A DNA stretch of 57,547 nucleotides, taken from assembly GCA_903855945.1 (NCBI GenBank), contig CAIOAK010000167.1, forward strand, positions 1 through 57,547, written 5' to 3'. Shown here one piece after another: positions 7,486-37,834 of this stretch. Source of the DNA: an uncultured Anaeromyxobacter sp. GTDB lineage: Bacteria; Myxococcota; Myxococcia; Myxococcales; Anaeromyxobacteraceae. Each line of letters starts with the position of its first letter. Positions within the stretch are counted from its first letter, which is position 1. The translations under genes were made by a program, and so were the position numbers. The notes below the pieces were generated by a model that worked only from the letters and a program-made list of their open reading frames with translations, had not been told where the DNA came from and did not search any database.

Positions 7486-9213
7486 ATGGTCGACAAGGTC
7501 GCGGTGGCCCGGGCGCTGCGGGAGCTGGGGATGCTGCTCGAGGTCCAGGGCGAGAACCCGTTCAAGGTGCGGGCCTACGAGAACGGCGCCCGCGCGCTGG
7601 AGGAACTGCCGGGCGGCCTCGACGAGGTGATCGCCGCCGGCACGCTCACCGAGATCCCGGGCATCGGCAAGGCGCTGGCCGCGAAGATCGAGGAGCTGGC
7701 GAGGACCGGCAGGCTCGAGCTCCTCGACCGGACCCGCGCCGCCCTGCCGGCCGGGATCGGCGAGATGCTGCGGATCCCCGACCTGGGTCCGAAGAAGATC
7801 GCCGCCCTCCACGCCGCGCTCGGGATCGGGAGCGTCCCGGATCTGGAGCAGGCCTGCCGCGAGGGGCGCGTCCGCGAGGTGAAGGGATTCGGGGAGAAGA
7901 CGGAACGGAAGATCCTGGAGGGCATCGAACGGCTGCGCACCGCCTCCGCCCGCGTCCGGCTCCCGGAGGCCCGGGAAGTCGGTGAGCGGCTGGTGCGGCG
8001 GCTCCGGGAGAGCGGCGCCGCGGAGCAGGTGGAGCTGGCCGGGTCGGCGCGCCGATGGAAGGACACGGTGGGCGACCTGGACCTGGTGGCCGGGTCGCGG
8101 GAGCCGGCGCGACTCTCTGCGGTGCTCTGCGCGGCCCCCGGTGTGGAGTCGGTGGTCGCGCACGGGGAGACCAAGACCACCGTCCGGATGGCCGGCGGGC
8201 TGTCGGTGGACCTGCGGGTGGTGCCGCCGGAGGACTATCCGAGCCTGCTCCTCCACATGACCGGTTCGAAGGAGCACAACGTCCGGCTCCGGGCCCTGGC
8301 GCGGGAGGCTGGCTTCACTCTTAGTGAATACGGACTGGAGCGACTCGCCGACGGCCGGAAGGTCCCGGTCCACGCCGAGGCGGATGTCTACCGGGCCCTC
8401 GGCCTTCAACCCGTACCGCCGGAGCTCCGTCAGGACACCGGCGAGGTGGAGGCGGCCCGCGAGGGGAAGCTCCCGGCCGAGCTCGTGACCCTCGGCGATC
8501 TCAAGGGCATGGTCCACGTCCACACCCGCTGGTCGGACGGACGGGCCTCGGTGGAGGAGATGGCCCGGGCCGCGCAGGAGATGGGCATGGAGTACCTCGC
8601 CATCACCGACCACAGCCGGAGCGCCTCCTACGCCGGAGGGCTCGACGAGTCGCGACTGCGCGCCCAGTGGGACGAGATCGCCCTGGTCCAGACGAAGGTG
8701 CGCATCCGGCTCCTGCGCGGGACCGAGGCGGACATCCTGGAGTCGGGCGCCCTCGACTGGTCCGACGCGGTGCTCGAGCAGCTCGACGTCGTGGTGGCGA
8801 GCGTCCACTCCCGCATGAAGATGGACACGGAAGCCATGACCGGGCGCATCCTCCGCATGCTGGAGCTGCCGGTCTTCAAGATCTGGGGGCACCCCACCGG
8901 CCGGCTGCTGCTCGAGCGGGAACCCTACGGGCTCGACATGGAGAAGGTGATGGACGCCGCCGCCACCTCCCGCGTGGCGCTGGAGGTGAACGGCGATCCC
9001 CACCGGCTCGACCTGGAACCGCGCCACCTGCGCATGGCGCGGGAACGGGGCATCCCGGTGGTGCTCGCGACCGACGCCCACTCGGTGGCCGGCCTCTCGA
9101 ACCTGCCCTACGCGGTCATGACCGCCCGGCGCGGATGGGTGGAGCGCGACGAGGTGCTGAACGCGCTCCCGGCCGCGAAGTTCACCGCCCGGGTCCGCCC
9201 CGGGGCGGGGTAG
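7486..9213 (+). CDS. polX: DNA polymerase/3'-5' exonuclease PolX
   Basis: The 575-aa protein has the bacterial family-X architecture: an N-terminal 8-kDa helix-hairpin-helix region (about 1-130, EIPGIGKALAAKI), the polymerase palm with the nucleotidyl-transfer motif GSARRWKDTVGDLDLV (about 186-201), and a C-terminal PHP exonuclease domain (about 340-575; VHVHTRWSDG, ITDHS, SVHSRM, DAHS). Length matches Bacillus and Deinococcus PolX. It fills short gaps in base-excision and break repair in the cytoplasm. It starts at ATG 7486, immediately after a TATACA element, with no ribosome site. The ampG-like gene follows by 11 bp. Confidence 0.92.
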   Translation: MVDKVAVARALRELGMLLEVQGENPFKVRAYENGARALEELPGGLDEVIAAGTLTEIPGIGKALAAKIEELARTGRLELLDRTRAALPAGIGEMLRIPDLGPKKIAALHAALGIGSVPDLEQACREGRVREVKGFGEKTERKILEGIERLRTASARVRLPEAREVGERLVRRLRESGAAEQVELAGSARRWKDTVGDLDLVAGSREPARLSAVLCAAPGVESVVAHGETKTTVRMAGGLSVDLRVVPPEDYPSLLLHMTGSKEHNVRLRALAREAGFTLSEYGLERLADGRKVPVHAEADVYRALGLQPVPPELRQDTGEVEAAREGKLPAELVTLGDLKGMVHVHTRWSDGRASVEEMARAAQEMGMEYLAITDHSRSASYAGGLDESRLRAQWDEIALVQTKVRIRLLRGTEADILESGALDWSDAVLEQLDVVVASVHSRMKMDTEAMTGRILRMLELPVFKIWGHPTGRLLLEREPYGLDMEKVMDAAATSRVALEVNGDPHRLDLEPRHLRMARERGIPVVLATDAHSVAGLSNLPYAVMTARRGWVERDEVLNALPAAKFTARVRPGAG

Positions 9214-30207: not shown

Positions 30208-31356
30208 ATGCCCAAGAAGCCAACCCCACGGCAGCTGCGCAAGCGCTACCTCTCCCGTCCCCCCGTCGAGCCCATGAGGCTGCGCAAGGGGATGACGGTC
30301 GTGGACCTCGTGGACGTCTACCGCCGGGCCGGCGCCTTCAACGGCGGACGGCTCGCCGAGGGTTGCGACCTCTTCGGTCGGATGATCGACGCCAACGCCA
30401 CCATCGCCCTCACGGTGACCGGGGCCATGGCGCCGGCGGGGGTGGGAGGGGCGATCCAGGCGATGATCGAGGCCGGGTTCGTCGACCTCGTCATCTCGAC
30501 GGGGGCGAACCTCTACCACGACCTCCACTTCGCCCTCGAGCTGCCGGTCGTGCAGGGTCACTTCCAGGTGGACGACCGGGAACTCTACCGGGCCGGGATC
30601 GAGCGCATCTACGACGTCTTCATCACCGAGGATTCGCTCCTCGACACCGACGCCTTCGTGCGGGAGGCGCTCGAGAAGGCCCCTCCTGCCCTGCGCGGGC
30701 GCATCTCCACGGCGCGCCTCCACGACTATCTGGGGCAGCTCGTCCTCCGCCACGCCCCGCTGCCGCAGCGCTCCTGGGTGGCCACGGCGGCCCGGCACGG
30801 GGTGCCGATCTTCACGAGCTCGCCCGGGGACTCGTCGATCGGGATGAACGTGGCCGCCATGAAGCTTCGTGGCGGCGAGACCACCATCGACCCCGACCTC
30901 GACGTGCTCGAGACGACGGCCATCGTCTACGACGCCGACGTGAACGGCGTGGTGATCCTGGGGGGCGGATCGCCCAAGAACTTCTACCTCCAGACCCAGC
31001 CCACCCTCTGGCAGATCCTCGACCTCAACCGGGGCGGCCACGAGTTCATGCTGCAGATCTCCACCGACTCGCCGCAGTGGGGCGGGCTCTCCGGCGCCAC
31101 CCCCAGCGAGGCCATCAGCTGGGGCAAGATCCAGGCGGACATGCTGAAGAACCACGTGGTGGTCTACTCCGACTCCACCATCTCGGCGCCCATCGTCTTC
31201 GCCTACGCCCTCTCCACCCGGAAGCCGCGCAAGCCACGCCGGCTCATGGACCGGCTGGACGGGCTGTACGAGAAGCTGCACCGGGCACACGCGAAGCGTC
31301 ATCCGGGGTCGGATGCGATGCGGGACGTGGGGAAGGCGACGCGGAAGCAGAAGTAA
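30208..31356 (+). CDS. Deoxyhypusine synthase family enzyme (possible homospermidine synthase)
   Basis: The 382-aa protein has the NAD-dependent deoxyhypusine synthase fold. The catalytic lysine context ISWGKIQ is present (Lys near residue 307), as are the NAD-site motifs VISTGANLYHDLHFA (near 91-105) and VVILGGGSPKNF (near 248-259), and TDSPQWGGLSGATPSEA. Bacteria lack eIF5A, and bacterial family members characterised so far include homospermidine synthases; others have no assigned role. A lysine/arginine-rich N-terminus and C-terminus flank the fold. It follows the Rrf2 gene by 53 bp and may have its own promoter (TAATCT near 30171-30176). Confidence 0.82.
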   Translation: MPKKPTPRQLRKRYLSRPPVEPMRLRKGMTVVDLVDVYRRAGAFNGGRLAEGCDLFGRMIDANATIALTVTGAMAPAGVGGAIQAMIEAGFVDLVISTGANLYHDLHFALELPVVQGHFQVDDRELYRAGIERIYDVFITEDSLLDTDAFVREALEKAPPALRGRISTARLHDYLGQLVLRHAPLPQRSWVATAARHGVPIFTSSPGDSSIGMNVAAMKLRGGETTIDPDLDVLETTAIVYDADVNGVVILGGGSPKNFYLQTQPTLWQILDLNRGGHEFMLQISTDSPQWGGLSGATPSEAISWGKIQADMLKNHVVVYSDSTISAPIVFAYALSTRKPRKPRRLMDRLDGLYEKLHRAHAKRHPGSDAMRDVGKATRKQK

Positions 31357-31415
31357 CGCCGCGCCCCGTGGTCGTCTTGGACAGGCCGCATCGGGCGACG
31401 CGCTCGGCGGCCGCC

Positions 31416-31446
31416 GATCGGATGCCCGCATCCGAAAAGTTCATCC
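31416..31446 (+). repeat. 31-bp direct repeat, left copy (with internal palindrome)
   Basis: This segment matches 37075-37105 at 29 of 31 positions in the same orientation. It contains the palindrome TCGGATGCCCGCATCCGA (6-bp GGATGC/GCATCC core stem). It overlaps the truncated end of the group II intron remnant. Confidence 0.8.
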
Positions 31447-31983
31447 CCTCCACGGGGTCCCGTCGGGACGGTTCCCCCGCTTCATCGGTACTGTGAGAGG
31501 CTCCGACTTCCTGCCGCCCTTCCCGCCGCGCTTCGTTTCCTTCGCTCGGCGGTTACCGGCGTCGCTCCGTTGTTCGCTCTCGCGGGGGTCGAGCTCACCG
31601 TCCGCGAGCCAGGGCGTCTACGGGTCGCCCATCCGTTCACCGCTGGAGACGGCAGGATCTCCCAGGTTCCTGGGGGTCCCCCTGTACGTTCGCTGCGTCC
31701 TCAGGCCCCGGCCGGACCTCGGCGCCTCGCATGACGGCGCTCCGGTGCTGCGTCCGTCCCAGGTGAAGACGTCCGCTCCAGCGATCAGTTCGTTTCGAGG
31801 CTCCATCACGCGGCTTCCGCACTCCCTGTGTACGCTTCGCAGCCGGGGTCACCCCCGGACCACGCAACACTCGGTTCCGGCTGGTTGCTGGCCTTTGCCG
31901 GGCAGGGTTACGTCCTGCTGGGACCCACTGAAGGTTTCCATCGGCTACATGACTTCCTCCTTCTCCAGGCTTGCCTGGCGCAC
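31441..31983 (-). mobile_element. Group II intron remnant (5' ribozyme part and aborted ORF start)
   Basis: On the minus strand the segment opens with GTGCGCC, the 5' boundary typical of bacterial group II introns, followed at once by a CCAGGC/GCCTGG hairpin and about 500 nt of domain I-III-like, stem-rich sequence. Near the other end is an ATG (31485) opening MKRGNRPDGTPWRG and stopping at TGA 31443-31441; this resembles the first codons of intron-encoded reverse transcriptases. I find no RT domains, domain V or domain VI, so it is a 3'-truncated, immobile remnant. It interrupts the lipoprotein gene. The rest of 31357-31440 holds nothing else but the repeat. Confidence 0.6.
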
Positions 31984-32356
31984 CACCCGATGAACTGACC
32001 GTGACGTCGGCCGCGTCGCCGGCGAGAAGGACGAAGAGGGGCGGCTTCGTCTGGGAGACGTACACCCCCGGCTTCCGGCTCGTGAACCGGACCGCCTGCG
32101 CCGTCGCGGCCACCTCCCCCTGCCAGGTCCTGTCCGGCATGAGCATCGGGGTGGCGGTGGCGGGCCCCTCCTTCGGCCCGGCCCCGACCTCGTCCTCGTC
32201 GAACGCGGCGGCCCGAAACTCGTGGTCCTGCACCTGGAGGACGATCTCGCCGAGGGGCGTCGCCTTCTTGCTCACGTCTGCCGTCCAGCCCGCGCAGGAG
32301 GAGAGGAGTACGGCGGCGGCGGGGAGGGGCGAGGAAACGAACGCGCGCGCCGGCAT
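31984..32356 (-). pseudogene. Truncated lipoprotein gene, paralogue of the 36415 gene
   Basis: The gene begins MPARAFVSSPL with a lipobox (LLSSC, Cys near residue 21). It then matches the intact 212-aa protein at 36415-37053 in two blocks: GEIVLQVQDHEFRAAAFDEDEV against GEIVFYVNEFAYRAASFDDTEV, and AQAVRFTSRKPGVY...PPLFVLLAGDAA against AQAVKFTSKVAGRY...PPLTVVLHGEAA. About 70 residues between the blocks are missing. The 3' end is cut by the intron remnant; the open frame continues to 31637 only through intron sequence. It starts 9 bp after the kinase stop and was probably the third gene of a sigma-kinase-lipoprotein operon. Confidence 0.7.
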
Positions 32357-32365
32357 GGGCCCCCG

Positions 32366-35233
32366 TTACCTCGGGCCGAAATGGGCGCCGCGCTTCGGCG
32401 CCGCGCGGGACTCGATGGCAGCCTTCAGGCGGGACAGTTCCACCGCCGCCGGAAATCCCTCGTCCGCGTCGCCGAAGAGGTCGTCGGCCGCCGAGATGAA
32501 CTCCAGCGCCTCGCGCCGGAGACCGAGCCGCCACGCCGCCTCCGCCGAGACGAGCAGCGATCGACCGTACGTCCACCCTCCGGCGGGACCGACGGGAGCC
32601 CGGCTCCGGAATCGCGAGGCCGCGGCGAGCGCCTCGGACGGATCGTCCTCCCGCGCCACCTCGGCCAGGAGGTAGGCGGGGGACAGGGCGTCGTTGGGCC
32701 GCGGCGATTTCTGCTCGAGGGCGGCCAGCATGGCCACCGCCCGGTCCGAATCCCCGGCCTTCCAGGCCTCCAGCGCGCCGATCTCGACCCCGGCGACGGA
32801 GTCGGGCGGAACGGCCTCCCGCATGGCCCTGGCATCCTCCGGCGTGCCGAGCAGCGCGAGCTGGGTCGCGACGAGCGGCGCGTAGTCCGGTGCACCGACC
32901 CGGATCTTCTGGACCTCCGCCCGCATGCGCGGGAGCTTCCGGTCCCCGGCGGCGATCGATGCCCGGAGGAGCGCCAGGTCGAAGGGGGACGGACAGCGCA
33001 ATTCCGCCGGCGGTGCGTCGAGGAGCCGCCAGGCCTGCGACGGCCGGCCGCGCTCCGCCGCGAGGAGGACCCGGTACATGAAGGCGAGGCAATTCGCCGG
33101 CTCGCGCTCGGAGATGGACGCGGCGACCGTCTCTGCCTCGCCGAGCTGGCCGGCGGTGAGGAGCGCCTGGAGGAGGATGAGGCCTCCCGACGTGCCCGGC
33201 AGCCTCGGCTCCCAGGCACGCGCGATCTGCACCGCCCTCCCGTGCCGCCCGAGCCACCCCTCGCCCCTCACGACGTCGCGGACCTGCGCCGGGTCGGGCG
33301 TCCCGACCCCGTCCATCAGCTTCGCGAGATCCGCCCGGCGTCCGGCCAGGGCGTAGCTCTCCACGAGGTGCGGGAAGGCCCACGGATAGGACGGATCCAC
33401 GCTGACCATGCGCGCGAGATACGGGATCGCCTCGTCGTATCGGGAGACGTGGAAGAGGAGATCCCCGGCCTCGAAGGCCGCCTGCACGTCCCCGGGGTCT
33501 TCCGCGACGAGCGCCGCGTACCGGCGCAGCGCTCCCTCATCGTCCCCGGCGAGGTGGTCGCGCCATGCTCGCGCCAGCGCCTCGTCCCGTCTCGACAGAC
33601 GCCCGGGTGCCGCCAGCGAGGCGTCGAGGTGCCTCCGCGCCTCCTCGCTCCGCGGCTCGGCGGTCGACAGCACCACGCCGAGGTCCCTCTGGGCCAGGGC
33701 GAAGGAGGGATCGGCCTCCAGCGCCCGGCGAAGGTGGTCGTCGCAGCCACCGGTGGCGTCCGCACCGTTCGACTCGGGAATCGCGCCCATGCATTTCACG
33801 GCTTGTGAATAATGACGGAAGGCGACCAGGCTGGGCGTCGCGAGGTCGGCGAGCGATCGGGAATCCCTTTCCAGGTCGGCGCGCCGTTCGCCGGAGGCCC
33901 TCCGGAACGCGCGGACGGCCCCGTCCAGTTCCCTCGGCAGCGCCTCGAGGCTCGGTGCCTTGGCGGTGGACTGGAAGCGGACCCGCCCGGTCGTGGCGTC
34001 GCGCCCGGTGAACGTCACGGCGAGATCGGAGCCGTCCCGCCTCGCGCCCAGCTCGAGAATCGTGGAAGCACCCACCCGAGCGGCCACCTGGCGCCAGTCC
34101 TCCGCGCTGGCCGTCGCCGGCGCTCCTCCCAGGCCTCGGAGTCCCCCCTCCATCCGTGGCTGGGCGACCACCGAGATGCGCCGGGAGTCGGAGAGGCCGA
34201 TCCGCACCAGCTCGGTCACGTGATCGAGCTCGGCCAGCCCCGACTCGTTTTTCGTCGGGGCGAGGGCGACGAGGATGCGCTCGCCCGGGTGCGCCTCCGT
34301 CGGGGTCGACGCTCCCACGATCACCCAGATTGTGGCCGCCAGTACCATGGCGATCGAGACGACGAGCGCGGTGCGCCGGATGACCGAGCTTCCCTCGGTC
34401 CGGATCGCCTCCAGCCGGGCGAGGACGGCCTTCGCCGTTGCGGGGCGCTGGTCCGGATCGGCCTGGGTGAGAGCCTTGCCGAGGCTCGCGAGCGCCCTGG
34501 CGCGCCGGGAAGTGCGCGGGCCGCCGGCCGTACAGGCCGCTTGCACCTTCTCGATCAGGACGCCCAGGGCGAAGAGGTCGGAGCGGGCGTCCTCCGTTCG
34601 CCCGTTCTGCTGCTCCGGCGCCATGTAACCCGGCGTGCCACTCCCCGGCACCGATTCTCGATCGAAGAGCTGCGCGATCCCGAAGTCGAGCACCTTCACG
34701 GAGCCGCCCTCGCAGAGGAAGACATTGGCCGGCTTCAGGTCCCTGTGAAGGATTCCGGCGCCATGCGCCTGATCGAGGGCGGAGGTAACCGCGATGGCGA
34801 TCCGGATGACCTCGTCGAGCGTCATCCCCCCTCGCGCCAATCGCGCGTCGAGCCCTTCCCCATGCAGCAACTCGAACACGAGGTAGGCCCCGTGCTCCGA
34901 GCGCCCGGCCTCGTGGATGGTCACGATGGCGGGGTGGTTGAGCCGGGCCACCGCCTCCGCCTCGGCGTGTATCCATTCGGTCTCCCCCCGGGCCAGCCCG
35001 ATCCCGGGACGAAGGAGCTTGAGCGCCACCTCCCGCCCCAGATCGGGGTCCTGCGCCGCGTAGACCACCCCGAAGCCGCCCCGGCCGATCTCGCGTTGCA
35101 CCACGAACCGCCCCACGTGCGTGCCCCGGGCCAACCCCTCGAAGTGGACATCCGGGATGGGGACGCGCGGGATGCGCGCCAGGTCCTCGAGCAGTCGGGA
35201 CAGCTCCCCTGCGCCGGAAGGCGAATCCGTCAT
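32366..35233 (-). CDS. Membrane Ser/Thr protein kinase with TPR-like C-terminal region
   Basis: The 955-aa protein has an N-terminal Hanks-type kinase domain (about 40-275): glycine loop GRGGFGVV (50-57), Lys72, HRDLKPAN (163-170), DFG (183-185) and APE (205-207). One transmembrane helix follows at about 290-308. The remaining 650 residues are a periplasmic or cytoplasmic helical repeat region with TPR-like stretches (for example ALEADPSFALAQRDLGVVL, near 535). All catalytic residues are intact. It overlaps the sigma factor gene by 4 bp, so the two are translationally coupled; the kinase may control the sigma factor or its anti-sigma partner. Such sigma-kinase pairs are common in Myxococcota and Planctomycetota. 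Confidence 0.9.
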   Translation of the reverse strand: MTDSPSGAGELSRLLEDLARIPRVPIPDVHFEGLARGTHVGRFVVQREIGRGGFGVVYAAQDPDLGREVALKLLRPGIGLARGETEWIHAEAEAVARLNHPAIVTIHEAGRSEHGAYLVFELLHGEGLDARLARGGMTLDEVIRIAIAVTSALDQAHGAGILHRDLKPANVFLCEGGSVKVLDFGIAQLFDRESVPGSGTPGYMAPEQQNGRTEDARSDLFALGVLIEKVQAACTAGGPRTSRRARALASLGKALTQADPDQRPATAKAVLARLEAIRTEGSSVIRRTALVVSIAMVLAATIWVIVGASTPTEAHPGERILVALAPTKNESGLAELDHVTELVRIGLSDSRRISVVAQPRMEGGLRGLGGAPATASAEDWRQVAARVGASTILELGARRDGSDLAVTFTGRDATTGRVRFQSTAKAPSLEALPRELDGAVRAFRRASGERRADLERDSRSLADLATPSLVAFRHYSQAVKCMGAIPESNGADATGGCDDHLRRALEADPSFALAQRDLGVVLSTAEPRSEEARRHLDASLAAPGRLSRRDEALARAWRDHLAGDDEGALRRYAALVAEDPGDVQAAFEAGDLLFHVSRYDEAIPYLARMVSVDPSYPWAFPHLVESYALAGRRADLAKLMDGVGTPDPAQVRDVVRGEGWLGRHGRAVQIARAWEPRLPGTSGGLILLQALLTAGQLGEAETVAASISEREPANCLAFMYRVLLAAERGRPSQAWRLLDAPPAELRCPSPFDLALLRASIAAGDRKLPRMRAEVQKIRVGAPDYAPLVATQLALLGTPEDARAMREAVPPDSVAGVEIGALEAWKAGDSDRAVAMLAALEQKSPRPNDALSPAYLLAEVAREDDPSEALAAASRFRSRAPVGPAGGWTYGRSLLVSAEAAWRLGLRREALEFISAADDLFGDADEGFPAAVELSRLKAAIESRAAPKRGAHFGPR

Positions 35234-35802
35234 TCCGGTTGACCGAGACGCCGGACTTCATCGCCGAGGCGCGCCTTGAGCCGCTCGAATCGCTTCCGTA
35301 CCGCCTGCGCGTCCACCGTGACTCCGTCGCTCGACATCACCCGCGCCACGTCCTCCCACGGCAGCTTCTGGTCGATGCGAAGCGCGAGGAGCATCTGGTC
35401 GTCCAGGTCGAGGGTGTCGCGAAGCCGTTCGAGCACGCTCGCCTGCCGCTCCCGCCGGACCCCGGTCCGTGTTCGAACGTCGGCGGCGAGCCGCTCCGCC
35501 TCCTTCGTCTCTAGCCGCCGTCCACGCTTGCGCCAGCCGTCGCGGCTCACGGTCACGGCGGCGTTGCGGGCGAGGGCGTAGACCCAGGCTTTCAGCGGGC
35601 CCTCCCCGCGGTATGTCGCGGCGTACTTGAAGAGGTTCTCCGCGAAGAGGGAGAAGGCCTCCTCGGCGGCGTCCTCCTTCCTACGAAGCAGGACCCGGAG
35701 GAGCCCGTAGACGCCCGGGCCGTGCTCGTGCATCGCCTGCTCGACCCCGCCCCGGATGTCACCCAGAGCGAGGAGCTCGGCAGCCGATGGCTTCGAGATC
35801 AT
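35230..35802 (-). CDS. ECF-type RNA polymerase sigma factor
   Basis: The 190-aa protein has a sigma region 2 (about 28-82; EDAAEEAFSLFAENLFKYA and KAWVYALARNAAV) and a region 4 helix-turn-helix (about 125-180; LRIDQKLPWEDVARVM, then AVRKRFERLKARL). Region 3 and region 1.1 are absent, as in extracytoplasmic-function sigma factors. No separate anti-sigma gene is adjacent; the kinase that overlaps its 3' end is the likely regulator. TAAGAT (35814-35809) lies 6 nt before the ATG with no ribosome site, suggesting a leaderless mRNA. Confidence 0.85.
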   Translation of the reverse strand: MISKPSAAELLALGDIRGGVEQAMHEHGPGVYGLLRVLLRRKEDAAEEAFSLFAENLFKYAATYRGEGPLKAWVYALARNAAVTVSRDGWRKRGRRLETKEAERLAADVRTRTGVRRERQASVLERLRDTLDLDDQMLLALRIDQKLPWEDVARVMSSDGVTVDAQAVRKRFERLKARLGDEVRRLGQPE

Positions 35803-35808
35803 GGGGCC

Positions 35809-35814
35809 ATCTTA
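35809..35814 (-). promoter_or_regulatory. Candidate -10 (TAAGAT) for the sigma-kinase operon
   Basis: TAAGAT on the minus strand ends 6 nt before the sigma factor ATG. No Shine-Dalgarno is present. No clear -35 is visible. Confidence 0.4.
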
Positions 35815-35956
35815 CGCGACGCACGGAAGCCGGGGTGCGCGATCGGAGGGACCCTTCCGGGCGATGTCACAAACCCGGACGCCGCGCGCCTTGTCATCAG
35901 GGGAGGCCCGTTCGACCGGGGACCCTGAGATGGTACGCGCGTCGATGATGTAGCGG

Positions 35957-36376
35957 TTGTCCAACTGTCGATTCCTGAGGTCATACCTGAAACGAATTGC
36001 TTTCATCGCTGGTCTTGCAGCTGCGCTCTCCGTGAGCGCCTCGCAACTTCAGTCGACATCTGTTCGGGCAGCAGGGTCCATTCAGCCGCTCATGGGTTCC
36101 ATCGAGACCCACTGGATGTACTTCTCGGACGACACTTTCGCTGTCGTGATCGGCGAACGAGGGTACGACTGCTATCGATCCTTCAGCTGGGGAAACCGAA
36201 GCAGCTACGTCCTCGACTTGGGCGGCGGCGCGTGCGGCGGTCCTGGCGGGTCGCCCGAACCCCTGTGCTATGTGGATGGGTTCCTCACGACGTGCCCGTC
36301 CTCGTCGTGCTTCTACCTGGAAACCTGCGAGCCGTGTACGGGGTGGGGCTGCCCGGATTTGGACCCTGACCCCTGA
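35957..36376 (+). CDS. Small Cys-containing secreted protein (DUF6289-like)
   Basis: The 139-aa protein has a signal peptide-like start (basic YLKRIAF, then a hydrophobic stretch to about residue 36) and a mature part of about 100 residues with nine cysteines. The pattern WMYFSDDTFAVVIGE, then DCYRSF, WG and a terminal Cys cluster resembles the small DUF6289 family of exported proteins of unknown function. The TTG at 35957 is the only start that keeps the signal peptide; no strong ribosome site is seen. Base composition is visibly less GC-rich than in the neighbours, consistent with acquired DNA. Confidence 0.55.
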   Translation: MSNCRFLRSYLKRIAFIAGLAAALSVSASQLQSTSVRAAGSIQPLMGSIETHWMYFSDDTFAVVIGERGYDCYRSFSWGNRSSYVLDLGGGACGGPGGSPEPLCYVDGFLTTCPSSSCFYLETCEPCTGWGCPDLDPDP

Positions 36377-36414
36377 AGTCCACAGGCCCGCTTCGCCCTC
36401 GCCCGGAACCCACC

Positions 36415-37053
36415 ATGCGACACACGAGAATCGGAATGGCCCTCGCGGCAGCAATCGTCTCAGCCGCCGGCATTGCGGCGCCATCGATCGCTGCTGGTGA
36501 GCAACCCAAGCCTCGGGGTGAGATCGTCTTCTATGTGAACGAATTCGCCTACAGAGCCGCCTCCTTCGACGACACGGAAGTAGCCGTGGGCAAGATGGGG
36601 GGGCCGTCCTTTTCGTCTCTCCAACTCACCCCCGGCGGTACGTGGAACGGACAAGTCGCGTCGTTCCGGTCGGGCGGCAACCCGACGAGGTTCGCCTTCA
36701 ACAAGGGCATCGTAGGGAATCCCCGGTACAAGAGCGGCCTCGTCGAGTTGAAGGCCGAAGGCAACCGGATCACCGGGTTCGGAACGGATGTCACGGTCAG
36801 CAAGGTTTCCGGTGGCTTCCGGATCACCGGCCTCTGGATGCTGAGCAATGTCGACGTCACGGTGACTCGATCCTCCGCCCGTGCCCAGGCGGTGAAGTTC
36901 ACGAGCAAGGTGGCGGGCCGGTACGAGAGCCCGTCCACCCCGCCGCTCACCGTGGTGCTGCACGGCGAGGCGGCCCGGATCGAGGACCCGCCTTTCCCCC
37001 ACATGGCCCTCGCCGTGCTCTCGATCGGGTGGGGGGTATACCCGTATCCGTAG
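36415..37053 (+). CDS. Secreted protein of unknown family, intact paralogue of the 31984-32356 remnant
   Basis: The 212-aa protein has a signal peptide (residues 1-27, cleavage near AIAAGE) and no further membrane helix. Conserved blocks shared with the truncated lipoprotein are GEIVFYVNEFAYRAASFDD (near 35-53) and AQAVKFTSKVAGRY (near 161-174). I do not recognise the family. The middle 70 residues, absent from the remnant, are beta-rich in appearance (VELKAEGNRITGFGTDVTVS). It starts 38 bp after the small Cys-containing protein on the same strand, so the two may be cotranscribed. Its stop lies 21 bp before the right-hand direct repeat. Confidence 0.65.
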   Translation: MRHTRIGMALAAAIVSAAGIAAPSIAAGEQPKPRGEIVFYVNEFAYRAASFDDTEVAVGKMGGPSFSSLQLTPGGTWNGQVASFRSGGNPTRFAFNKGIVGNPRYKSGLVELKAEGNRITGFGTDVTVSKVSGGFRITGLWMLSNVDVTVTRSSARAQAVKFTSKVAGRYESPSTPPLTVVLHGEAARIEDPPFPHMALAVLSIGWGVYPYP

Positions 37054-37074
37054 GGAACGTGCTCGCCGTCCCCG

Positions 37075-37105
37075 GATCGGATGCCCGCATCCGAAACGTT
37101 CGTCC
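37075..37105 (+). repeat. 31-bp direct repeat, right copy
   Basis: It matches 31416-31446 at 29 of 31 positions, same orientation, with the same GGATGC/GCATCC palindrome. It lies between the secreted-protein stop (37053) and the convergent cvpA-like stop (37124). The palindrome could also act as a bidirectional terminator stem, but no T-run follows. Confidence 0.8.
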
Positions 37106-37123: not shown

Positions 37124-37834
37124 TCAGCGCGCCTTCCGATCGATCCGCTCCTGCGCCGCCTCCAGCCGGTCCCGGAACTCGGGATCGGAGAGCAGCCGCA
37201 GGGCCTCCGGGGACCTCACCACGCCGCTCGCGTTGCCCGAGCGGATCTCGTCCACGAGCGCCCGCACGCGCGGGTCGTCCATGAGCCGCCGCAGCTCCGG
37301 GTCCCCTGCCGCGCGCCCCTCCGGCCCGGGCCGATCCGCCGCTCGCAGCAACTCCGCCAGCGCCTTCTCGGCCCGCTGCCGCCAGCCGCCGAGGAGATCG
37401 TTCTCCCGCACCAGCCCGGCGAGGTCGCTGTGCGCCAGCGCCGACTGCCACCCCGCAGGCAACTCCGGCGACGCCGCCTCCGCCACCGCGAGCCCGATCC
37501 AGCCCGCCGCGGCCGCCGCCATCCCGGCGAGCAGCGCACCGCCGGCCCGGTCGAGCGGCCTCCCCTCCCCCTCCCGGTTCCGTGAGAGCCTGCGACCGAG
37601 GAGCGCGACCGCCAGTGACACCACGATGAAGAGAAGCAGCGCCGCCGCCGGCCGCGACGCCCCCTCCGGCACGAGCCGCGCGAGCACCTTCCCCACCGGC
37701 TCGGAGAGGTGGCGCGCCGCGAGCCATCCCAGCGCCGCGCCGGCGAAGAGGAAGAGCGGCCGCAGCAACCCCGAAAGCGCCCCCAGGAGGGCCGCCACGG
37801 CGAGGAGCGCGAGGAGGGCCGCGTCGAGGATCAC
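37124..37834 (-). CDS. CvpA-like membrane protein
   Basis: The 236-aa protein has four hydrophobic helices in its first 115 residues (LDAALLALLAVAALLGALSG, PLFLFAGAALGWLAAR and two more) in the CvpA/colicin V production pattern, then a charged helical C-terminus with a run of PELRRLMDDPRVRALVDEI. CvpA family members influence envelope integrity and secretion in other bacteria; the exact role is unknown. The GTG at 37834, 5 bp after the J-domain gene stop, fits the start of helix 1. It is the last gene of the hsp70-J-cvpA group. Confidence 0.7.
   Translation of the reverse strand: MILDAALLALLAVAALLGALSGLLRPLFLFAGAALGWLAARHLSEPVGKVLARLVPEGASRPAAALLLFIVVSLAVALLGRRLSRNREGEGRPLDRAGGALLAGMAAAAAGWIGLAVAEAASPELPAGWQSALAHSDLAGLVRENDLLGGWRQRAEKALAELLRAADRPGPEGRAAGDPELRRLMDDPRVRALVDEIRSGNASGVVRSPEALRLLSDPEFRDRLEAAQERIDRKAR

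Follow-up and report, generated by a model that had tools for sequence, protein, structure and literature searches.

A genomic insertion bordered by 49-bp direct repeats between two convergent core genes of Anaeromyxobacter

How did a small group of accessory genes come to lie between two near-identical direct repeats in this Anaeromyxobacter genome, and do the repeats mark its ends? The original prediction placed the repeats at positions 31416-31446 and 37075-37105 of the window, by which we mean the whole 57.5-kb stretch of DNA analyzed, and offered three readings: ends of an inserted island, target duplications, or members of a dispersed palindromic repeat. Both the coordinates and the match of 29 of 31 bases in the same orientation proved exact. 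An ungapped, same-strand scan of the window for 31-mer pairs identical at 27 or more positions returned no further pair, the remaining matches being this same pair, shifted. Alignment by BLAST within the own genome extends the repeats leftward to 49 bp (31398-31446 and 37057-37105, both on the forward strand; 86% identity, E 9.5e-9). The copies differ at 7 of the 49 positions (14%), all of them outside a core of 22 bases that are identical in an unbroken run around TCGGATGC-CC-GCATCCGA. The palindrome expected in each copy is present as a perfect 8-bp stem with a two-base gap, TCGGATGC CC GCATCCGA, at 31418-31435 on the left and 37077-37094 on the right. However, comparable stems number 18 in the window versus 18-34 in mononucleotide shuffles; a stem of this size is therefore ordinary in 70% GC sequence, and the significance of the pair rests on the duplication and not on the palindrome.

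The flanking genes and their arrangement in relatives indicate whether the segment arrived by insertion. To the left is the gene for a deoxyhypusine synthase (DHS)-like protein (30208-31356, forward strand; Pfam PF01916, E 1e-78), which passes the homospermidine biosynthesis protein model NF001980 at 487.8 bits against a cut-off of 450 and is 92-93% identical in three congeners. To the right is the gene for a CvpA-family membrane protein (37124-37828, reverse strand; PF02674, E 6e-17). Both are core genes, which agrees with the earlier description of the genes outside the repeats as ordinary, and they converge on the segment. In all three congeners (G001, G002 and G003) the DHS-like gene and cvpA are adjacent, ∼20-195 bp apart, and the segment is absent; in G009, a member of the same family, the gap between the DHS and DnaJ genes fits no more than one gene of CvpA size. 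Given that the flanking genes lie side by side without the segment in three congeners, we conclude from gene order that the segment is a derived insertion of ∼5.6 kb in the lineage of the window, between two convergent core genes. The comparison with sister genomes that had been proposed thus favors insertion. Fourfold-site divergence of two flanking genes between congeners is 31-42%, and the lower difference of 14% between the repeat copies fits an insertion after the species split. The DHS-CvpA intergenic regions of the three congeners are strongly diverged and hold no recognizable copy of the repeat, and no genome with an empty site and a single repeat copy was found, the congener regions being too diverged for one to be recognized. 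A derivation of the repeat from the sequence that lies, in congeners, 3′ of the paralogue described below or of the left core gene was rejected, as neither has significant similarity to it. There is no tRNA gene at the insertion site.

The repeats are tied to this insertion by what lies directly inside them. A group II intron remnant (31447-31983, reverse strand; Rfam RF02005, 128 bits) keeps its 5′ end and D1-D3/D4 start, and lacks an ORF, D5 and D6. From its start, GTGCGCC at 31983, as far as GGAGGG it can be aligned with G012 and Halomonas introns, and it is 71% identical to an ORF-bearing intron on contig C151 of G012. Homology to the G012 and Halomonas introns is lost within ∼2 bp of the left repeat's inner edge at 31446; on the opposite side, 3 bp separate the stop codon of the last cargo gene from the right repeat. 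Two independent palindromes would not be expected exactly at the cargo edge; therefore, the repeats mark the borders, the left of which falls at an arbitrary position within the intron. The insertion is real, well delimited and ordinary in kind, a clean case in which direct repeats, cargo edges and the empty sites in relatives all point to the same borders. A search of the own genome gave no further copy of the intron. In G003, related group II intron 5′ ends stop at the ends of contigs C34 and C150 (L055 and L056), which suggests that this genome carries several copies of a related intron.

All the elements that had been listed between the repeats were recovered: intron remnant, broken lipoprotein gene, sigma-kinase pair, lower-GC secreted protein and paralogue. 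Next to the intron is the broken lipoprotein-like gene (31984-32356, reverse strand), in which alignment with its paralogues reveals a large internal deletion and replacement of the last residues by the intron. It is followed on the same strand by genes for a Ser/Thr protein kinase with a TPR-containing C-terminal part (32366-35233; PF00069, E 3e-36, and TPR matches) and for an ECF-like sigma factor (35230-35802; TIGR02937 E 9e-10, below the cut-off), the two genes overlapping where the sigma factor gene ends and the kinase gene begins. Adjacent sigma and Ser/Thr kinase genes are also found in kinase-coupled ECF sigma systems (the ECF43-type EcfK/PknS of Xanthomonas, PMC13147305, and EcfP), a comparison that touches the cargo only and is a likeness of gene arrangement, not an ECF group assignment. 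On the forward strand are the genes for a small secreted Cys-rich protein (35957-36376, start codon uncertain), which has no Pfam or NCBIfam match and a lower GC content (0.63-0.65 vs. 0.70), and, as the last cargo gene, for the paralogue of the broken lipoprotein-like gene (36415-37053), intact by alignment and with relatives in G001, G002 and G003. Apart from the broken paralogue and sigma/kinase relatives at 28-42%, no cargo gene was found a second time in the own genome. No integrase, site-specific recombinase or transposase gene was found in 31447-37056.

Among the three readings first offered, the dispersed palindromic repeat can be discarded. REP elements, which are mobilized by Y1 (RAYT) transposases, resemble the window repeat in having a short palindrome in each copy; however, the own 4.07-Mb genome has exactly two copies of the 16-base palindrome, a 21-base core occurs twice even when three mismatches are allowed, and no Y1 transposase (PF01797) was found there. 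A search for a 20-base core in a collection of 84,980 species genomes, from which the own or very near genomes were possibly left out, gave no match, and neither did a search of viral contigs. The bare palindrome matches in five other genomes of the family or order, where ∼3 such matches are predicted by a rough estimate from base composition. The ends of IS200/IS605-type elements, with hairpins in the same orientation at both ends, were considered and rejected, as the genome has no Y1 transposase and no partner element. An integron attC site was rejected as well, since the repeat, read by eye, lacks the GTTRRRY core. Insertion itself, common to the other two readings, is upheld by the empty site in three congeners, which fits island ends and target duplications alike.

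Relatives of the cargo elsewhere in the genus bear on its source. In G002, contig C48 carries the genes for the kinase, sigma factor, small protein and paralogue in synteny, the end of the paralogue being on C26. Their locus is a different one, as the DHS-CvpA junction in G002 has no insert. Identity to the C48 proteins is 60% for the kinase and 76% for the sigma factor, and among 41 genomes the small secreted protein occurs outside the own genome only in G002 (62-63%). In G003 a sigma-kinase pair on contig C199 adjoins a tyrosine integrase gene and a ParE toxin gene, and relatives of the pair on C97 adjoin an excisionase-like HTH gene. A comparable segment is on contig C52 of G001 (CAIVAR010000052.1), where a relative of the last cargo gene (55% identity) lies between long direct repeats of 116 bp (91% identity) that contain the 3′ part of tRNA-Asp, in an island that also encodes a tyrosine integrase and an AbiE pair. 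It differs from the window segment in its tyrosine integrase, its tRNA-Asp site and the unrelated sequence of its 116-bp repeats. The window repeat and the tRNA-Asp att repeat do not match, so a shared att site was rejected. On the same G001 contig (L092), the integrase 3′ end and the tRNA-Asp att sequence are repeated at 1-285 and 8125-8432, which suggests that islands lie in tandem at this tRNA-Asp. Relatives of the cargo genes are thus neighbors of island genes within the genus. Cargo of phage or plasmid type was rejected, as neither viral contigs nor plasmids yielded a relative of the paralogue and viral contigs lacked the core repeat.

We consider it somewhat better than an even bet that the segment is a relic of cargo from a genomic island, now without an integrase, and that the repeats are its duplicated insertion site, most likely attL/attR-like. 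The sigma factor, kinase, secreted protein and lipoprotein-like genes would have come from the integrase-type genomic islands of the genus, and a group II intron would have landed in one of the lipoprotein-like genes of this cargo. Integration between the DHS-like gene and cvpA would have copied the insertion site at each end, giving the 49-bp repeats. A site-specific recombinase presumably made the duplication and was later lost, leaving a segment that is probably now immobile. The segment shares with integrase-type islands its absence in relatives and its unique direct repeats, but not a recombinase gene. Given that 31447-37056 contains none, we infer a relic of island cargo and not an intact island. 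The integrase of an att island normally lies next to one end, and both the missing integrase or recombinase and the lack of a tRNA at the site count against the att reading. The comparison across Anaeromyxobacteraceae genomes shows that a cassette of sigma factor, kinase and secreted protein changes place between them, and relatives of its genes adjoin integrases.

Alternatively, the repeats could be a long target-site duplication made without a recombinase, in which nicks staggered by ∼49 nt in the intergenic region were repaired by fill-in and joined to a captured piece of DNA that by chance began, on the left, within a group II intron and ended, on the right, just past the last gene. A repeat that abuts an arbitrary point inside an intron fits such a broken fragment as well as or better than it fits an island end, and the segment lacks both terminal inverted repeats and a recombinase, as a captured fragment would. 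Nevertheless, the own genome, which is 99% complete, yielded no Ku gene, so classical bacterial end joining seems unavailable, and 49 bp is long for a duplication. We therefore regard this alternative as possible but rather unlikely, and the more general proposal, that a Ku-independent, recombinase-free process operates in this lineage, capturing arbitrary-ended fragments and leaving ∼49-bp target duplications centered on a palindrome, as improbable. Were the duplication independent of a recombinase, the locus would usefully illustrate long target duplication.

The relic reading must also be set against one in which the repeats are functional stem-loops, either bidirectional terminators without a U-tract or protein sites, that were duplicated independently of the insertion. 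Each copy lies between convergent genes and the 22-base core is free of all seven mismatches; however, a run of 22 matches given 7 mismatches in 49 has P ∼0.08, and the stems fold no better than shuffles. The sequence downstream of the stems (AAAAGTTC and AAACGTTC) has no U-tract of the kind that marks an intrinsic terminator, and a terminator scan listed neither copy. The coincidence of the repeat edge with the intron truncation would also be left unexplained, and we hold this account to be distinctly improbable.

A little less probable again is that an IS1634/IS1549-like transposase made a long target duplication and that the IS was later replaced by the cargo. Direct repeats of 8-514 bp are reported for elements of this kind, and the likeness to IS1549 and IS1634, whose insertions have long direct repeats of variable length, is that insertion creates repeats of tens of bp (PMC2266710); according to the same review, a mechanistic model for long target duplication had yet to be proposed. 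An intact IS1634-family transposase gene is present in the own genome, near a contig end (G000:C54:96-1670, L094). However, the window segment has neither a transposase gene nor terminal inverted repeats, both expected of a DDE transposon; its inner ends show no inverted-repeat similarity (P 0.985), and no IS ends remain in it, those of the resident IS, CTGAACTTCCAGC and CCGAACTTCCAGC, being different. Least probable of all is an assembly artefact, in which short-read assembly fused two loci at the shared core: the core is an exact 22-base repeat, the own genome is a draft of 213 contigs and the named relatives are metagenome-assembled genomes, but two separate false joins would be required, each with different unique flanks, and a single 57.5-kb contig contains both junctions.

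Two further loci carry diverged relatives of the lipoprotein-like genes. On contig C131 of G003 (L059, ∼8771-8880) and contig C96 of G001 (L060, ∼8573-8680), each diverged lipoprotein-like paralogue is followed by GTTCCACGTGGAAC in two copies; this sequence resembles parS partition sites.
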